From Oncomelania hupensis (Eukaryota > Mollusca > Gastropoda > Littorinimorpha > Pomatiopsidae), in the NCBI GenBank assembly GCA_036898135.1, contig JBAHVR010000308.1, positions 582,001 through 646,000 on the forward strand: a stretch of DNA of 64,000 nt, written 5' to 3'. Shown piece by piece: positions 7,250 through 64,000 of this stretch (the first letter of the stretch is position 1; every line of letters begins with the position of its first letter). The notes below the pieces were generated by a model. It was not told the origin of the DNA. It worked only from the letters and a program-made list of their open reading frames with translations, and made no database searches. Position numbers and translations under genes: made by a program.

Positions 7250-7697
7250 ATGTCTGATGTTGTATACTCTCATGGTTGCCCACATAGCTGCATGCCAGAC
7301 TCGGTCAAACGCCTTTTTGAAGTCTACGAACACTTGATATAGATGTTGTTGGTGCTGAAGGTATTTCTCGCAGATTAATCTGAGGTTGAAAATCTGTTCA
7401 GTTGTATTTCGCCCTGCCATGAATCCTGCCTGCTCTTCATCTATGATTTGTTCAGCTTGGGGTTTCAACCTGTTGAGTATTATTTTCAGGAAGACCTCGC
7501 TGGGATGGATGATGGGTTGAGGGTGCGGTAATTTTCACATTCCTGAATGCTACCTTTTTTGGGAAGAGTGATGACAAGCGACTGGGTCCATGATGTAGGC
7601 CACTCCCCACTCTGCCAGATCTTGTTACGGATAATGGTGAGTGCGTCAATCATCACTTCTCCTCCTGCTTGAAGCAGTTCTGCGGGTATGTTCTTCT
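7250..7697 (-). mobile_element. RTE-clade LINE, fragment A2 (partial duplication)
   Basis: The piece runs in the same minus orientation and covers the segment from the linker (MIDALTII, IWQSGEWP) through DFKKAFDRVW to the start of the NIS-equivalent region, then switches abruptly at about 7250 to the upstream TPNGDPSV linker of fragment A1. The stretch from MIDALTII to KKAFDRVW is therefore present twice in tandem. At 7697 it meets the Polinton gene at 7700 without any GGATA tail. Confidence 0.75.
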
Positions 7698-7699
7698 AT

Positions 7700-8107
7700 T
7701 AAGTTTTTTTTAATTTCTTCAACAATAACAGGTACAGACCTAGATTTAGATTGGATGTCATGCTTCAACTTTTTATATTCTTCAAAATCTCGCTGGATAA
7801 TTACAAACTCTTGGCCAGTAATCTGGGTGTCTTCTAGAGCTTTCGAAATTATTAAGTTCATGCTAGTAAGTTTAGCTATCGCAGGCTAGAAATGAGGTCA
7901 TGTTTTTCTAGTTTCTTAGATACTTTAGTATTAAATACACCTACTGGAACTGATATCAATGCAGATAATCCGGCAGCAACCCCTAATCCAATACTAATTG
8001 GTATACCTAATCCAGTCACCAATAATCCCACGCTGATAGCAGCTTCCGCTGTATTAATAACATTTAGACCAGTAGACGCGTAATTTATTCCGTTAAAAGC
8101 GCTGGAA
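7700..8107 (-). pseudogene. Polinton small membrane-like protein, C-terminal part
   Basis: Minus-strand reading gives a hydrophobic glycine-rich segment (SVGLLVTGLGIPISIGLG), then a KVSKKLEKHD segment, a break near 7890, then SKALEDTQITGQEF and a charged helix to about 7700. The same protein occurs at 62845-63300, and the family is common next to Polinton/adintovirus-like genes in invertebrate genomes. The N-terminal part lies 6.5 kb away at 14601-14794, because the gene is split by the element at 8108-14594. Function is not known to me; a membrane-associated virion protein is a guess. Confidence 0.65.
8102..8107. repeat. Left 6-bp target duplication, CTGGAA
   Basis: CTGGAA here and again at 14595-14600 flank the long-TIR element. 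Alignment with the unbroken Polinton copy at about 62860-62890 shows that one copy of this hexamer is the ancestral sequence. Confidence 0.9.
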
Positions 8108-8542
8108 TATGAGGCGCCATTTGTAAATTAAATCATTATTGTCATTATATCTATAGAACATACATTTTACCTGTATAAAAGATATTGTATACTTATAAAA
8201 TGAATTCTATGTCTATAAAATACATTCAATAGCAATACAAAACTTTTTATAGCTAAAAACAACATTTTTATAACTACAGACTACATTTTACAATATACAA
8301 GAGAAATCATACGCGATCATCACGCCGTTTGTAAATATTATTCCGAAAAACTATTTTATCTCTAAACACTTCATTTTATCTCTAAACACTACATTTTATA
8401 CATAAACAATTCATTTTATAGGTAAACAATTCATTTTATAAAACAAAGAGCTTTTATATCTATAAAATAAATGTTATAATATATACAATGCATTTTACCT
8501 GTAGAATGCATTCGGAGCATTATTTTACATTCGGCGCATGAC
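8108..8542 (+). repeat. Left terminal inverted repeat
   Basis: It aligns with the reverse complement of 14066-14594 from its first base to the TCGGCGCATGAC block at 8531-8542. The body is an iterated AT-rich unit of the form CATTTTAT-x(3-5)-TATAAAC. An internal CACGCCGTTTGTAAATATT at about 8320-8338 echoes the terminal GCGCCATTTGTAAATT, as if an older end were nested inside. Confidence 0.9.
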
Positions 8543-8581
8543 ATTAATTTTATACTGACTTTCGAATTACTCTGCCGTGAA

Positions 8582-8602
8582 CTGACAAAACCGAGCAAGT
8601 CC
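8582..8602 (-). repeat. Single inverted copy of the subterminal motif
   Basis: CTGACAAAACCGAGCAAGTC is the reverse complement of the motif that opens the palindromic units at 8767, 8842 and 8915. Confidence 0.7.
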
Positions 8603-8766
8603 ACAAAACCTACTTTCGAGAAAATCGACGTTTTGTGTTGCGCTATATTACGCGATCGTTTCTGGAAGTTTAAGGGCATATTATAATGCAATTCCTCGAT
8701 TTAAGAGTGCATACCTTGAATGTTAAAGAAATGTTTGATAGATTTGATGTTTTAAGACTATTTGTG

Positions 8767-8980
8767 GACTTGCTTTGTTTTGTCAGATTATTCTTGAGAT
8801 AGGTCTTTGTTGAGAACATGACAAAACCAAGCAAGTCACCCACTTGGTTTTGTCAGTTTATTATTGAATTAAATCCTTGTTAAAAAAATTCACAAAAACA
8901 AGTAAGTCAAATCCGCTTGGTTTTGTCAGCTTATTATTAAGTAAATCCTTGTTTTCAAAATTCACTAAACCAAGTAAGTC
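8767..8980. repeat. Array of three palindromic subterminal units
   Basis: Units at 8767-8837, 8842-8908 and 8915-8980 are each about 66-71 bp. Each opens with a GACTTGCTTGGTTTTGTCA-like sequence and closes with its complement (TGACAAAACCAAGCAAGTC in unit 1), with a TTATTATTGAATTAAATCC-like middle. Each unit can fold as a hairpin. Related motifs lie at 13040, 13136 and 13382 near the other end of the element. These look like protein-binding or structural repeats. Confidence 0.8.
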
Positions 8981-9152
8981 CCATAGGCCGTTTCTTTGTT
9001 TAAAAAGTCTGACGAGATGAGTCACATAAGTTCGGTTTTGTAAAATGTGGGTGCGGCAGTTAAAGTGTATGTATGTGTGTGCGTGTTTGTTATTGTTTTT
9101 AGCCATTCTTCACTTAATATTCCTCGGTTGGTATGCAGGAGTCATGGTTATG

Positions 9153-9395
9153 GGGTAGCCCGTAGCGCAGTGGGTAGGCGCCGGTGTTCAATGCCGATGG
9201 TCGCGGGTTCGAGCTCCGCACGGGGCAAAACTTTAGGATTCTTATGAGACTTTACGGGTCACCGAGGGTTCTCTCCTGGTACTCCGGTTTCCTCCCTCCC
9301 TTCAAAATAATATTAGATGCAGCCAATTTAATTTTAAAAATACAAAACTATTTTCCTTTCAGTTTCCTATTGTAGCGATCTTCCTGCCTTTACAC
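9153..9395 (+). mobile_element. tRNA-derived SINE
   Basis: A tRNA-like head carries an A box (TAGCGCAGTGGG at 9163-9174) and a B box (GGTTCGAGC at about 9206). It is followed by a conserved-looking core with GGTTCTCTCCTGGTACTCCG and an AT-rich 3' part. The core resembles central domains shared by invertebrate SINEs, but I cannot name it. It sits inside the long-TIR element. Confidence 0.7.
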
Positions 9396-9448
9396 CACGT
9401 GTATGTCTTGTATTTTGTTGCCCTTGTTGTGTGTCTGTAATATATTTG

Positions 9449-12400
9449 TTGCTGTTTGTGGGTTCGAGCACAGAATAGAATAGACCCAACGTTTCCCGGC
9501 GTGTCGAAAGAGGCGACTAACAGGGTAATGTTAACACGGCATCACTGGGCGAAAGTCTTCTACACAGAAGTCACCTGCCAGGGCGAGCGAGGAACCTCAC
9601 GTTACTACAGGTTCAACGACCACGTGCTCAAGGCCAAGGCGAGCCACACTGTATTCGTGGATTTCGGCTGTGGCCAACAGCCTGGAGAGGGATGGGCACC
9701 GTTAAGTCTTTTTTTGCCCAAGACACACTACATGAGGACACTATCCACTAATTCCATACCGGATCGGTCGTCGCCCGGCTCAAGGACCGCGCCTTCCGTT
9801 GGCCACCAATACGGAGGTGTTAAGTATGCTACTGATGGACAATTTAGCAAGATCCGCACGAGAAACAACATCGTCATAGGAACCTGGAATGTCAGGACCC
9901 TAACTGCGGAAGGAAAATTAGAAGAACTGGTCCACGAGTTGGACCACTATAGATGGAACGTTCTAGGCATCAGCGAACTGCGCTGGAAAGGCCTAGGTGA
10001 AACAACGACCGACAAAGGCCACAAGCTCTATTTCAGCGTTAGAAATTAAAGGAACAAACACGGCGTTGGATTCTTGGTCCACAAGAACATTCTAGCCACT
10101 GTCATGGGTTGCCGCCCAGTCTCCAGTAGACTCATTACCATCCCCCTGAGAGCAGCCCCTTTCAACATCACCATCATCCAGGCCTATGCCCCAACATCAG
10201 ACTATGACGACAGCAAAGTGGAGGATTTTATGAAAATCTACAGGCGGTCCTTGACCAAGTGCCGAAGAAAGATAATAGTCATAGTGCAAGGCGACTGGAA
10301 TGCCAAGGTTGGCCAAGATGCGCACCACAACTGGGGAGACACATGTGCACCCCACTGCAACAACGAGACAAATGACAGGGATCTGAGATTCTTGGAGCTT
10401 GCCAGACACAACAATCTGGTACTGGCAAACAAGCTTGGTCTCCACAAAAACTCCATACGATGGACATGGCACATTCCCGGCGGGGAGCATCAAAACCAAA
10501 TAGACTACATCATGGTCAAGAAACGCTTCAGATTAAGCATCAACATTGGCAGGACACGCACCTTTCCAGGAGCAGACATCGGAAGTGACCACGATCTCTT
10601 GATGATGTCTTTCCGGCTCCACTTGAAGAGAGTAAATACAGCAAAGTGCACTAGACTGAAGTTCGACCTGGACAAACTGCAAGACCCGGAGGTGGCAGAA
10701 CTATTTCAGGCCACAATTGGAGGGAAATTTTCACCACTGCTCATTTTGGGGGCTGGTGAAATAGATGTCAACACCATGACCACCACCTTCAACTCAGCCG
10801 TAATAGATGCCGCCGCTGAGATCCTTGGCAAGCACCGACCAAAGAAAAAGCCGTGGATCACACCTGAACTTTTGGATGTGTGTGATAAACGAAGAGAGAT
10901 TAAAAAAAAAAAAAAAAAAAAGAACACCTCACAGTGAGCTGATGTCTACCGAAAAATCAACAATGACACCCGAAAAGGCATGCGCACAGCAAAGGAGAAC
11001 TGGATAGAAGATCAATGCCAGGAAATTGAGAACAGTCTGAACAAAAACAACAGCAAGAAGGCCTACCAGACTGTAAAGCGGCTGACAAATGTCAAACAGC
11101 CCAAAGTCTCCACGATCCAAGGCAAGTCTGGCATATGCCTTACAGAAGAACAAGAAGTCTTGGACAGATGGACAGAGTACTGCTCTGACCTTTACAACCA
11201 TACACCAAATGGAGACCCATCAGTTCTAGCATGTCCCGAGAACAGAGAAGAACAAATCCTCCCAATTCTCCGGGAAGAAGTTGAGGCAGCAGTGCTATCG
11301 CTAAAGAAAAGTAAGTCAGCGGGAGTGGACAACATACCCGCGGAACTGCTACAAGCAGGAGGAGAAGCGATGATTGATGCCCTCACTATTATCTGTAACA
11401 AGATCTGGCAGAGTGGAGAGTAGCCTATACCATGGGCCCAGTCGCTTGTCATCACTCTTCCCAAAAAAAGGTAACCTTCATGAGTGTGAAAATTGCCGCA
11501 CCGTCAGCCTCATCAGCCATCCCAGCAAGGTCCTCCTGAAAATAATACTTAACAGGTTGAAACCCCAAGCTGAACAAATCATAGCTGAAGGACAAGCATG
11601 ATTCAGGGCAGGGCGAAGTACCACTGAACAGATTTTCAACCTCAGAATAATCTGTGAGAAATACCTACAGCACCAACAACATCTATATCATGTGTTCATA
11701 GACTTCAAGAACACGTTTGACTGAGTCTGGCATGTAGCTCTATGGGCAACAATGAAAGTATACAATATTAGCCCTAAAATTATTGAAGCCATCAAACGCC
11801 TGTTTGACAAGGCTACAAGTGCAGTCCTCCACAACAGCGCCATCGGAAACTGGTTCAGAACAACAATCGGTGTGCGTCAAGGATGCCTACTCTCTCCAAC
11901 ACCCTTCAACATCTTCCTAGAGCGCATCATGTCAGATGCTCTTGCAGATCACGAAGGCACAGTCAGCATAGGGGGTAGAGCAATCTCCAATCTTCGTTTT
12001 GCGGATGACATTGATGGATTGGCTGGAGAGGAACAAGAACTTGAACAGCTGGTAGAGAGGCTTGACACCACCTCCAAAGCCTATGGAATGGAAATAAGTG
12101 CACAGAAGACCAAAATGATGACCAACAACACCAATGGCATCAACACGGACATTAAAGTCCAAGGTCAATCCATCAACACAGTGCATAGCTTCAAATATTT
12201 AGGAGCCATTGTATCAGACAATGGATCCCGACAGAAAGTCCTCTCCAGGTTTGCACAAACAACTGCTGCACTGACAAGGTTTAAGCCATTTGGAAAGACA
12301 GGACCATCAGTCTACATTCCAAAGTAAGACTGCTGCGCTCCCTTGTCATCTCCATCTTCCTATATGCTTGCGAAGCATTGACCCTCACAGCAGATCTCCA

Positions 12401-12809
12401 ACTAAGAATACAAAGCATGGAGATGAGGTGATACAGAAGACTTCTGGGCTTTTCCTATACCCAACACATCACCAACGACGAAGTCCGACAGACCATCACA
12501 CAAGCTATTGGACAACACGATGACCTGCTCACAGTGGTGAAGAAACGGAAACTCCGATGGTATGGCCACGTCACCAGATCATCAGACCTTGCAAAGACTA
12601 TTCTGCAAGGCACAGTGCAAGGAGGTAGAAGAAGAGAGAGACCGAAAAAGAGGTGGGAGGACAACATTCGAGAATGGACTGGTTTGACACTGAGCGAAGC
12701 CATCAGGGCTGCTGAGGACAGGGAAAGATGGAGTATGTTGGTTAAACGATCATCTGTGGTGCCCCTACGACCTCAGGGTTACGGGACAGGGTAGGATAGG
12801 ATATGATAG
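9449..12809 (+). mobile_element. RTE-clade LINE, near full-length copy B
   Basis: The 5' end (TGGGTTCGAGCA, then AATAGAATAGACCC) matches the start of the copy at 30023. The 3' end carries the family tail, GGATAGGATATGATAG. In order it holds a 5' region, an apurinic-type endonuclease, a linker, a reverse transcriptase and a C-terminal domain ending in GYGTG. It is inserted in the long-TIR element; clear target duplications were not found. A poly-A run at 10904-10922 lies inside the coding region. Confidence 0.9.
9456..12797 (+). pseudogene. RTE endonuclease-reverse transcriptase, inactivated
   Basis: The endonuclease shows GTWNVRTL near 9880, ELRWKG near 9980, GDWNAKVGQD near 10295 and GSDHDLLMMSF near 10590. 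The RT shows IWQSGE near 11405, DFKNTFD near 11705, GVRQGCLLSP near 11870 and FADDIDGLAG near 12000 (catalytic Asp pair kept). A C-terminal RRIQSMEM / RYGHV-type region ends near 12790. Breaks: stops at about 10047 (TAA), 10935 (TGA), 11421 (TAG), 11599 and 11722, and frameshifts near 11465 and 12290. The product would normally nick target DNA and prime reverse transcription there. Confidence 0.85.
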
Positions 12810-13187
12810 TTTGTTTGTTTCCACACCTCGTGGAAGTTGCCGCATAGGCTGAAGAGCCACAGGATCCTTCATGGTGGGCAGGAAAGTACATGAAGAAAAC
12901 TCTTTTTCAAAAAGCCGAACACGTCATTTGCTGACTGAAATTTCGTCATCTTTTTCACAGGAAAATAATATTGCACAGCAGCAATAACATGGATTCTCAC
13001 TGGTCCACTTCATCGTAAGGCACTTTCTCATTGGTCGGGAGGACTTACTTTTTTTTTTGTCAGTTTATTATAGAAGATGACGTCATCATGCCAACTCGAG
13101 CATCAGCCAGAGGATCGCCGAAACAAAATCGCAGTGGACTTGCTTGGTTTTGTTAGTTTATTCCCCCACTTAAATGTTTTTTAACAA

Positions 13188-13250
13188 TACAATACAATAC
13201 AAGGTTATTGCTTTAGGTCCAGCGGACTCTTCCGAGCCAAATCAGGACCA
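13188..13250 (-). mobile_element. 63-bp hairpin retroposon
   Basis: A 34-nt module (plus-strand 13216-13249) begins and ends with GGTCC/GGACC and is followed, in minus-strand sense, by a (TTGTA)n-type tail. It is flanked by AAATGTTTTTTAACAA at 13172-13187 and the same with one extra T at 13251-13267, a clear target duplication. In RNA sense the module folds as an outer GGUCC/GGACC stem around GGCUC-GGAA-GAGUC, a GNRA-type loop. Sister copies are at 34776-34836 and 35498-35534. Confidence 0.75.
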
Positions 13251-13378
13251 AAATGTTTTTTTAACAAGGACTTACTCTATGATATCTCCAAATCTAAACA
13301 TAGTTCGGATTTGATTTTTACAGGTAAGATGCGTCATTCTCTTGCAAGTTTGAAGGCGCAAAAAACTCATTTTCGACC

Positions 13379-13819
13379 TTAGGTGGACTTACTCGGTTTT
13401 GTCAAATCACGGCAGTACTGATCCCAGGGAAGCAACTCCATCCTCGTGTAGACTACTTGTAAACTTCTAAGCGACTCAACATGGTAAAGACCATTAAAGT
13501 CTACTACAAAAAATGGCAAGGACCATACTAGTGTACTATATAAATTGGAGAGGACCATACTAGTGAAATGCTGATAAAACATCAGCGACATCATTGTCTC
13601 GACTGTTCCAATTATTTTTTGGTCGTCTTGAAAAACTATCGATAAGCACGAAGGCAAACCAGCTTCCATCGTAACTGTTACCTTGGAGATTGTTGACATC
13701 GCGGGAAGTCGATATTTCTCTCTGAATAGGCCTAGCGGGAATTCCCTACACGCGCCGTAGCTATCTAAATTTAACTTATGCAACGTCACTTCCACAGAAA
13801 AGGCGAGAGCCCAGCGCAT
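13379..13819 (-). CDS. Unidentified 146-codon reading frame in the long-TIR element
   Basis: An uninterrupted minus-strand frame in the right part of the long-TIR element, outside the RTE insert. The middle contains a FFVVDFNGLYHVESL segment and an IFVFQDD-like hydrophobic stretch (residues about 60-110). The last residues are translated from the subterminal repeat motif at 13382-13405. I do not recognise a family, and a chance frame of this length is possible. If real, it would be the only protein specific to this element. Confidence 0.25.
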   Translation of the reverse strand: MRWALAFSVEVTLHKLNLDSYGACREFPLGLFREKYRLPAMSTISKVTVTMEAGLPSCLSIVFQDDQKIIGTVETMMSLMFYQHFTSMVLSNLYSTLVWSLPFFVVDFNGLYHVESLRSLQVVYTRMELLPWDQYCRDLTKPSKST

Positions 13820-14065
13820 ACGTGCAGGAGGGGGGAGGGGGGGGGGCCTTTTTTCGTTGAATTGGTTGAATGTACCTATTAACCAATCGTCCCCTATACG
13901 CTTAATGAGTCTGGGGACGTAAATTTTAATTTAAAAAACAAAAACAAACGTCAGCCATCTTTGCGCACTGCATAGCAACTTTGGGTCGCTTAGAACGTTA
14001 CAAAATAAAAATAATCGAAGGGAGAGAAGCAGTTATACAATGAGAAAGTTAGTATAAAATTATTG

Positions 14066-14594
14066 TAAGGCGCCGACTGGAAAATAATTGTCGCGAATGC
14101 ATTCTACAGGTACAATTCATTGTACGTGTTATAAAATGTATTCTATAGATATAAGTGCTCGTTGTTGCTATAAAATGAAGTGTTTACAGATAAAAGGAAG
14201 TTTTATAGATCGTTTTTGCTATAAAATGACTTGTTTATAGATACAATGACTTGTTTATAGGTAAAATGAATTGGTTACTTATAAAATGTTTTGTTTATAG
14301 ATAAAATGAATTGGTTACTTATAAAATGTTTTGTTTATAAATAAAATAGTTTTTTTGTGTTTAATATTTACAAACGGCGTGACGATTCGTGTATGATCTC
14401 TTGTATATCATAAAATGTAGTCTGTAGCTATACAAATGTTGCTTTATAGCTATAAAAAGTGTTGTATTGCTATAGAATGTATTTTATAGGTATATAATTC
14501 ATTTTATAATTATACCATATCTTTTATACAGGTAAAATGTATGTTCTATAGATATAATGACAATAACCATTTAATTTACAAATGGCGCTTCATA
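14066..14594 (-). repeat. Right terminal inverted repeat
   Basis: Reverse complement partner of 8108-8542. It is longer because of additional tandem copies of the TATAAAATG-x-TTGTTTATAG unit at about 14200-14345. It ends at 14594, immediately before the CTGGAA duplication. Confidence 0.9.
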
Positions 14595-14600
14595 CTGGAA
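14595..14600. repeat. Right 6-bp target duplication, CTGGAA
   Basis: Matches 8102-8107. The Polinton coding sequence resumes at 14601. Confidence 0.9.
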
Positions 14601-14800
14601 TACCGTCTTCTGCATCTAGTGTACTTTTGGAGATCTGATTCAATTTCCATCCTCACTTTCCTTATTTCTTCCAACCTGAACGTTCGAACGTTAGTTAAGT
14701 CTAACATTGGAGCACTGGGCTGTAGTGGTTCTTCTTCCACTACTGCAGGATACAATTTTGTCACCATATTTTGTGTGTGAAAAAAAGACTTCATTAATTA
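14601..14800 (-). pseudogene. Polinton small membrane-like protein, N-terminal part
   Basis: Starts at a Met near 14773-14794. A Tyr-Pro and Glu-rich segment (LYPAVVEEEP) is followed by a basic amphipathic helix (RLEEIRKVRMEIESDLQKYT) that runs into the insertion at 14600. The rest of the protein is at 7700-8107. At 62845 the second Polinton has the same QKY-x-RCRRR junction region without the insertion. The order and strand agree with the neighbouring genes upstream on the minus strand. Confidence 0.65.
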
Positions 14801-62333: not shown

Positions 62334-62800
62334 ATTGAACTCAAATGATCTAGATTGACTTTGACGCGCATGCAAATGTTGGGAATGTTTTACGGTCTCG
62401 AATTTACACCATCTGGTTATTATAAACGAGCTTTAATACCGGCAGGTCCGACACAAGAAATTAAACCTTCTATAGGCGAGCTAAAGGATTTTAATGCTGG
62501 CATACTTGATCCTTACTTAAACTATGCAATTACCAAACTAGAAAATATCTTGTCTTTAACGCGAAAATAGATTGGCTTATTAAATTTAAATGTCGAAGCC
62601 CTTACACTGTCATAGGACCAGACGATAGATTATAAACGCTGGACCTCTTTTGTTAGTTTAGTGCCAGATGTAAATAATCGAGAAAACATCGAAATAAAAG
62701 CCTACACAAAAGCAATGTATGTTTTGCATAGCGTGATACTGCATGGAAAAACTTAAGAGTTGTTCTGCAGCATCCTTTTCATCTAAGTAGTACAGCTATA
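62334..62800 (+). pseudogene. Polinton 'GLEF-GYYKR' gene, second copy
   Basis: The start codon of the first copy is changed to ATT at 62334. GLEFTPSGYYKRALIPAGPT at 62385-62450 and KPSIGELKDFNAG near 62465 match 15598-15332. Later segments, RWTSFVSLVPDVNNRENIEI near 62640-62700 and LLDIIAHKP near 62810, supply parts that the RTE fragment removed from the first copy. Frameshifts at 62570 and beyond. Confidence 0.65.
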
Positions 62801-62844
62801 ATTATATTACTCGACATAATTGCTCACAAGCCCACGCAAAGAAA

Positions 62845-63400
62845 TATCCAAAAGTACTTTAGATGCAGAAGACGGTAGTCCAACGTGTTTAAAGGAATTA
62901 ATGATGTATACTGGTCTACATGTTATTAATACAGTGAAAGCTGCTTCTAGTGTGGGATTATTAGTGACCGGAATGGGTATACCAATTAGTATCGGATTAG
63001 GTGTTGCTGATGGAATATCTGCAGTACTACTAGGTGTGATTAATAGAAAAACATGGTGGCATTTCTTGCCTGGCGATAGCTAAACTTACAAGCATTAACT
63101 TAATAATTTCAAAAGCTCTCGAAGACTCACAGATAGAGTGTGTAATTATCTAGCCCGATTTTGAGAATACAAAAAGTTGAAGCATGATTTGCAATCTAAA
63201 TCAAGGTCTTTACCTAGTAACGTTGAAGAAATTGAAAAACATTGGAAGAAGGGTGACTATTAGGACGGAAAGAACAACTAGTTGTCATGAAGAAAAAGCT
63301 CGGTGTTTCAGAATAAATACATTTAACATTTACTTTGTTCCTATTGGTCCTCCCCCGCCCCCTTCCTCACCATATTCACAGTCTCTAATTTAAAGTGGCA
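62845..63400 (+). pseudogene. Polinton small membrane-like protein, second copy, unsplit
   Basis: The QKYFRCRRR junction, then HVINTVKAASSVGLLVTGMG at about 62920 and ISIGLGVADG, then SKALEDSQIE near 63115, match 14601-14794 plus 7700-8107 without the 6.5-kb insert. It has one in-frame stop near the junction and frameshifts after 63050. The N-terminal part is missing: sequence goes from the previous gene into the basic helix at about 62845, so a deletion lies there. Confidence 0.6.
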
Positions 63401-63539
63401 TAGGGCAAACTCTTTAGTGACCCTTATTCGTTTCGTGTCATTGGCGCATGTTCTTTTTTGTTTGTCACTGCTGGTCTGACTATGTGATTTTGTAGACTGT
63501 GTAGTTGTGTTAGGGTAGGGTTTAATTTATTTTCCGTTT

Positions 63540-64000
63540 AATTAATGCTGCTATCTTTGTTTTTTATTGCAGCTTTTTGAATACCTTTTTGCTCTTGAAC
63601 TTTCAACTGATTCGTGTTTAATACTGTACTGCTTGAATCGCAATCATACATAATTTATTCTTCTATTAATTTCCCGTTCATTTCGTCTTTCAACAAACCT
63701 AATTTCTTTTGGTTTCCTTTGCTGTACCAAGGGTAAATATTAGGATAGTCACTAGTGTCAAATGTTCTAATTCTGTTTCTAGTTCTTTATAAATGTCTTC
63801 AGTATGGATGTCTAATATTAAAGAGTCTGTGTCTGAGTATACAACTCTAGCTTCTGGGTACTTAGGTTTAAAGTAATCGTAATAAAATTTGAACATTAGT
63901 AGTTTAGAAAGTTTTAAGATGGTCGTCCCCATAAACACTGGTTTGTCTAGATTAACTTTGGTGGTTTTCATGGTAACAGCATACAGTGAGACATGAAACT
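63540..64000 (-). pseudogene. Protein-primed DNA polymerase B, C-terminal part (partial)
   Basis: Runs off the right edge. The minus-strand frame 64000-63760 contains the family-B motif C, ARVVYSDTDSLI (catalytic Asp-Thr-Asp), preceded by an LSKLLMFKFYYDYFKP helix, as in Polinton and adintovirus polymerases. A frameshift near 63760 moves the continuation (SDYPNIYPWYSKGNQ, then a Lys-rich thumb-like segment near 63590) to another frame. It faces the small membrane-like gene tail to tail. This copy replicates nothing if the frameshift is real. The polymerase identifies the whole cluster as Polinton-type. Confidence 0.8.

Follow-up and report, generated by a model that had tools for sequence, protein, structure and literature searches.

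A recently active family of non-autonomous DNA transposons with TATGARGCGCC ends in Oncomelania hupensis, probably of the IS3EU/GingerRoot superfamily

Results

The window, a stretch of 64,000 nucleotides of Oncomelania hupensis DNA, contains at positions 8108 to 14594 (forward strand, nested insertions included) one member of a dispersed family of inverted-repeat DNA elements with TATGARGCGCC ends. Its left terminal inverted repeat (8108 to 8568, forward) starts exactly with TATGAGGCGCC, and its right one (14039 to 14594, reverse) finishes with GGCGCTTCATA. The outer 152 bp of the arms (8108 to 8259 and 14443 to 14594) form an inverted match of 93%, further inverted-repeat blocks extend to 8568 and 14039, and a single local alignment of arm against arm gave 359/361 bp. 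CTGGAA flanks the element as a 6-bp target duplication, at 8102 to 8107 on the left and at 14595 to 14600 on the right. The long inverted repeats with exact ends that had been described from the sequence only are thus real. The arms contain internal repeats of ~20 bp; periodicity was computed on another copy, L004, in whose arms the match at a period of 20 bp was 0.457 and 0.465; 200 shuffles of each arm reached at most 0.401 and 0.378. An Rfam scan of the window at gathering thresholds gave no matches.

The window copy is 6.5 kb long because a nested second inverted-repeat element sits in it at 8572 to 13415. This insertion of 4844 bp, with the ends CTGCCGTGA...TCACGGCAG and inverted repeats of its own (33 bp, 91%), is flanked by duplicated TACT (8568 to 8571 and 13416 to 13419); L004, the copy compared, has no counterpart of it and contains TGCT once at this place. 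Therefore, the native element is ~1.63 kb long, and its interior, which in other copies is continuous with the left arm, is found at 13420 to 14038 (forward). Of the single 6.5-kb element proposed by the sequence-only reading, the outer element was confirmed, but 4844 bp of it are foreign to the native element. All three frames of at least 150 codons within 8108 to 14594 belong to a broken LINE that the nested element carries at approximately 9456 to 12810 (forward) and that has relatives at other places in the window. The frame at 11752 to 12327 is a reverse transcriptase fragment (Pfam match, E = 3e-16), the frame at 10074 to 10937 matches an endonuclease-reverse transcriptase family with E = 3.1e-5, below its cut-off, and the frame at 9456 to 10049 is without any Pfam match. 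Indeed, no transposase is visible in the window copy, as had been noted before. Inside the nested-element ends there are repeated TGACAAAACC-AAGTCC-like units, and a tRNA-like SINE head was recognized by eye within the nested element at 9158 to 9230.

The window copy interrupts a host gene on the reverse strand, one half of which lies at 7691 to 8106 (open in two frames) and the other at 14597 to 14797. When the flanks of the window copy were aligned separately, each matched one part of the unbroken stretch 62844 to 63251, in which the 6-bp target is present once; an uninterrupted relative of the host gene (62820 to 63080, forward) shows the empty site. The sequence-only reading had called the split gene a Polinton gene. 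The split and the empty site were borne out, and the Polinton identity is weakly supported: of eight pieces, one, the frame at 63702 to 63998, ~0.5 kb past the intact relative, matches DNA polymerase B below the Pfam cut-off (E = 0.0028), and the remaining seven are without a Pfam match. A protein search with a neighbouring host frame gave two relatives. The weak polymerase match is part of the remains of a Polinton-like element at 62340 to 64000.

The element model of the sequence-only reading depended on the existence of other copies with the same ends and the same duplication length, and it withstood both tests in the host genome assembly (1.45 Gb). Allowing at most 2 mismatches, a search with a 26-bp end pattern gave 474 forward and 456 reverse matches, whereas its backward control gave 0 in either direction; halving the 930 matches puts the family at roughly 465 copies. 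A search with the left arm gave at least 41 matches, with 40 of the 1182 first-look candidates scored. Copies were selected for reading as the best matches to one arm or for exact ends, and the sample is thus biased to young copies.

Both ends lay within the stretch read in 38 of the 40 copies from the left-arm search (window copy included), and 28 of these 38 complete copies had perfect 6-bp duplications. They represent 27 independent sites, since L018 and L019, ~23 kb apart on C6 and probably a duplicated segment, have flanks and duplication in common and were counted as one. In a mismatched-pairing control, 2 of 1406 pairings agreed over 6 bp, both of them L018 against L019. Among the 10 copies without a perfect duplication, L043 keeps 5 of 6 bases, L006 and L034 possibly have a shifted duplication or a changed end, and the remaining seven have no clear duplication. 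Ten additional copies from the end matches (1.65 to 9.9 kb), including all five listed pairs with two G-type ends (see below), all had 6-bp duplications, so that 38 of 48 copies carry a perfect one, and wherever the duplication was clear its length was 6 bp. With these duplications and 930 end matches against none in the control, an origin of the inverted repeats by chance or by faulty assembly is refuted. TA..TA termini were present in 47 of the 48 copies, which had been collected by likeness to that end. The target sites may tend to a weak GTTAAC, as judged from a symmetrised count. We also considered an 8-bp duplication (CTGGAATA), which fits the window copy alone. It was rejected because the adjoining bases contradict it: the first base of the element recurs directly after the right 6-mer in just 8 of 28 copies, and its last base directly precedes the left 6-mer in 5 of 28.

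Among the first 100 exact end matches listed, 78 formed 39 inward-facing pairs and 22 were unpaired. The spacing was 1.4 to 1.85 kb in 27 of the 39 pairs. One G-type and one A-type end were combined in 34 of them, 20 of which span 1.61 to 1.68 kb; the other five have two G-type ends (four of 1762 to 1771 bp, one of 3886 bp), and none of the 39 listed pairs has two A-type ends. The copies with two G-type ends are a second, sister subfamily of ~1.77 kb. The native length is usually ~1.63 kb, with 1446 to 1673 bp in the 16 complete copies aligned first. These 16, which as best matches lean young, have a mean pairwise identity of 97.7% (minimum, 96.0%), and therefore the family has been active recently. 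At L026 (G000:C2:28446700-28454000), a partial copy of ~1.1 kb in the opposite orientation comes immediately after a complete one.

The longest stop-to-stop frame in L004 has 107 codons, and no transposase was found in the family copies read, in agreement with the earlier view of a non-autonomous element. An element with TATGARGCGCC ends plus a transposase was not found among the copies and loci read. The longer copies that were looked at contain LINE-like or other additional sequence; the two left-arm copies for which the sequence read showed no right end have long reverse-transcriptase-like frames behind the left arm (judged by eye), and 601 bp read from the middle of the 3886-bp copy contain no long frame. 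The pairs of 7.7 to 9.9 kb were read at their ends, and one of them also over a stretch in L027.

The host genome contains 25 matches to Pfam rva_4 (PF24764), an integrase-like DDE core that we take to be the IS3EU transposase core; a limited literature search on PF24764 gave no confirmation of this identity. Two of three rva_4 frames aligned from the genome keep all three presumed catalytic residues (D, D, E), and the third begins downstream of the first D. Relatives among the best 120 of 155 proteins include those of ribbon worm, crinoid, snail, coral and fishes, and no confirmed relative was found in viral and prokaryote collections. We tested these genes as the autonomous partner by reading seven rva_4 places, two of which are one 99.4% duplication. 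At six places, no clear arm match was found in the stretch read (at C119, the region upstream of the gene excluded). At C12, the seventh place, the sequence ~2 kb downstream includes a 186-bp piece that is 85% like the right arm. This piece may be there by chance, since the 7.3 kb upstream showed no left arm, the C119 copy of this gene region (96% identical) is without it, and its next best genome matches (86 to 87%) are apparently ordinary copies. With no arm pair in the stretches read at the seven places and a lone piece that is missing from C119, the C12 piece was set aside and an rva_4 partner is therefore not claimed. The boundaries of sequence shared between the rva_4 places also gave no clear element ends.

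Discussion

The copies are best explained as a high-copy, recently active, non-autonomous family of cut-and-paste DNA transposons, and we consider it probable that they belong to the IS3EU/GingerRoot superfamily. Because no partner with these ends was found, we infer the superfamily from the termini and the target duplication alone. In IS3EU, all complete families end in TA..TA and the duplications are usually of 6 bp, whereas GingerRoot has 6-bp duplications and mostly TA..TA termini; in 2022, 17 of the 45 IS3EU families in Repbase were autonomous, and the remainder were therefore non-autonomous (PMC10045372). IS3EU elements of rust fungi have the ends TAYGG..CCRTA and 6-bp duplications (PMC12730594). 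The present family shares with IS3EU/GingerRoot the TA..TA termini, the 6-bp target duplications and the inverted repeats but differs in that no autonomous partner was found and perhaps in its repeat-structured arms of ~0.36 to 0.55 kb. From Ginger1 and Ginger2, which have TGTNR ends and 4- or 5-bp duplications (PMC2836005), it differs by its TATGA ends and 6-bp duplications; if the assignment to IS3EU is right, it would resemble them as an integrase-related, DDE-type cut-and-paste transposon with inverted repeats. The TATGARGCGCC family is thus probably a new member of an already known type of transposon.

If the family is mobilised in trans, a DDE transposase from another element would bind the long inverted repeats, in which the repeat units of ~20 bp are predicted as possible binding sites. 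The transposase would free the element and join its termini to the two strands of a target with a 6-base stagger, and repair of the staggered joints would leave the 6-bp duplication.

It is possible, though doubtful, that the copies are non-autonomous members of another superfamily with 6-bp duplications, for example hAT6 or Dada, or of one still undescribed. The missing partner and an assignment made from ends and duplication leave room for this, and the duplication length agrees with hAT6; the ends of hAT elements, however, are unlike TA..TA. hAT families with 6-bp duplications do exist (PMC12730594), whereas TA..TA together with 6 bp agrees with the published rule for IS3EU/GingerRoot (PMC10045372). 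Rather improbable in our judgement is an undescribed superfamily, or a deep branch of IS3EU, whose transposase would recognize very long arms made of ~20-bp repeats and whose autonomous partner would be lost or rare in the assembly, while several hundred passengers spread recently.

The sequence-only reading had proposed a non-autonomous element moved by a Polinton-type or unknown integrase and inserted into a Polinton in the manner of a satellite. We regard a Polinton/Maverick satellite as very unlikely, and for the integrase left unnamed there the IS3EU/GingerRoot type fits best. The 6-bp target duplications and long inverted repeats are common to both, and the window copy does lie within a Polinton-like gene, itself weakly identified. 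However, vertebrate Mavericks/Polintons have AG-type end motifs, (AG)3 or (AGT)2 (PMC8097293), whereas the present family, from a snail, has TATGA ends; the difference from the usual AG start, already remarked on in that reading, is seen in the copies read. Unlike Polintons themselves, the native element of ~1.6 kb, without a long frame, has no polymerase, integrase or capsid genes. The flanks also argue against it. We searched up to 1.5 kb on each side of the 39 other copies (some shorter; 70 kb of flank in all) at the nucleotide level, with the window's own Polinton-like stretches as the only queries, and no match was found around 38 of them; just L004 has Polinton-like sequence close by, ~1 kb from the insertion. 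On end motif and flanks, Polinton-type mobilisation was set aside, and the split of the host gene is an ordinary transposon insertion in which the signs of a Polinton satellite are absent.

Returning to the IS3EU/GingerRoot assignment, the family is young and numerous and is thus suited to testing how an IS3EU-type transposase recognizes long, repeat-structured ends. Its copies may be polymorphic in the species. Should the partner indeed be missing, the family would be a case of passengers outliving their enzyme.

Some rva_4 genes of the host are in pieces, namely at L047 (C115) and in its kin on C11, C182 and C5, with one piece on C12. The gap between the two scored pieces is ~1.7 to 2.9 kb, and the scores are near-identical at several places. 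No arms were seen at the one place of this type that was read, and these split genes may represent either a family of host genes or a different transposon.
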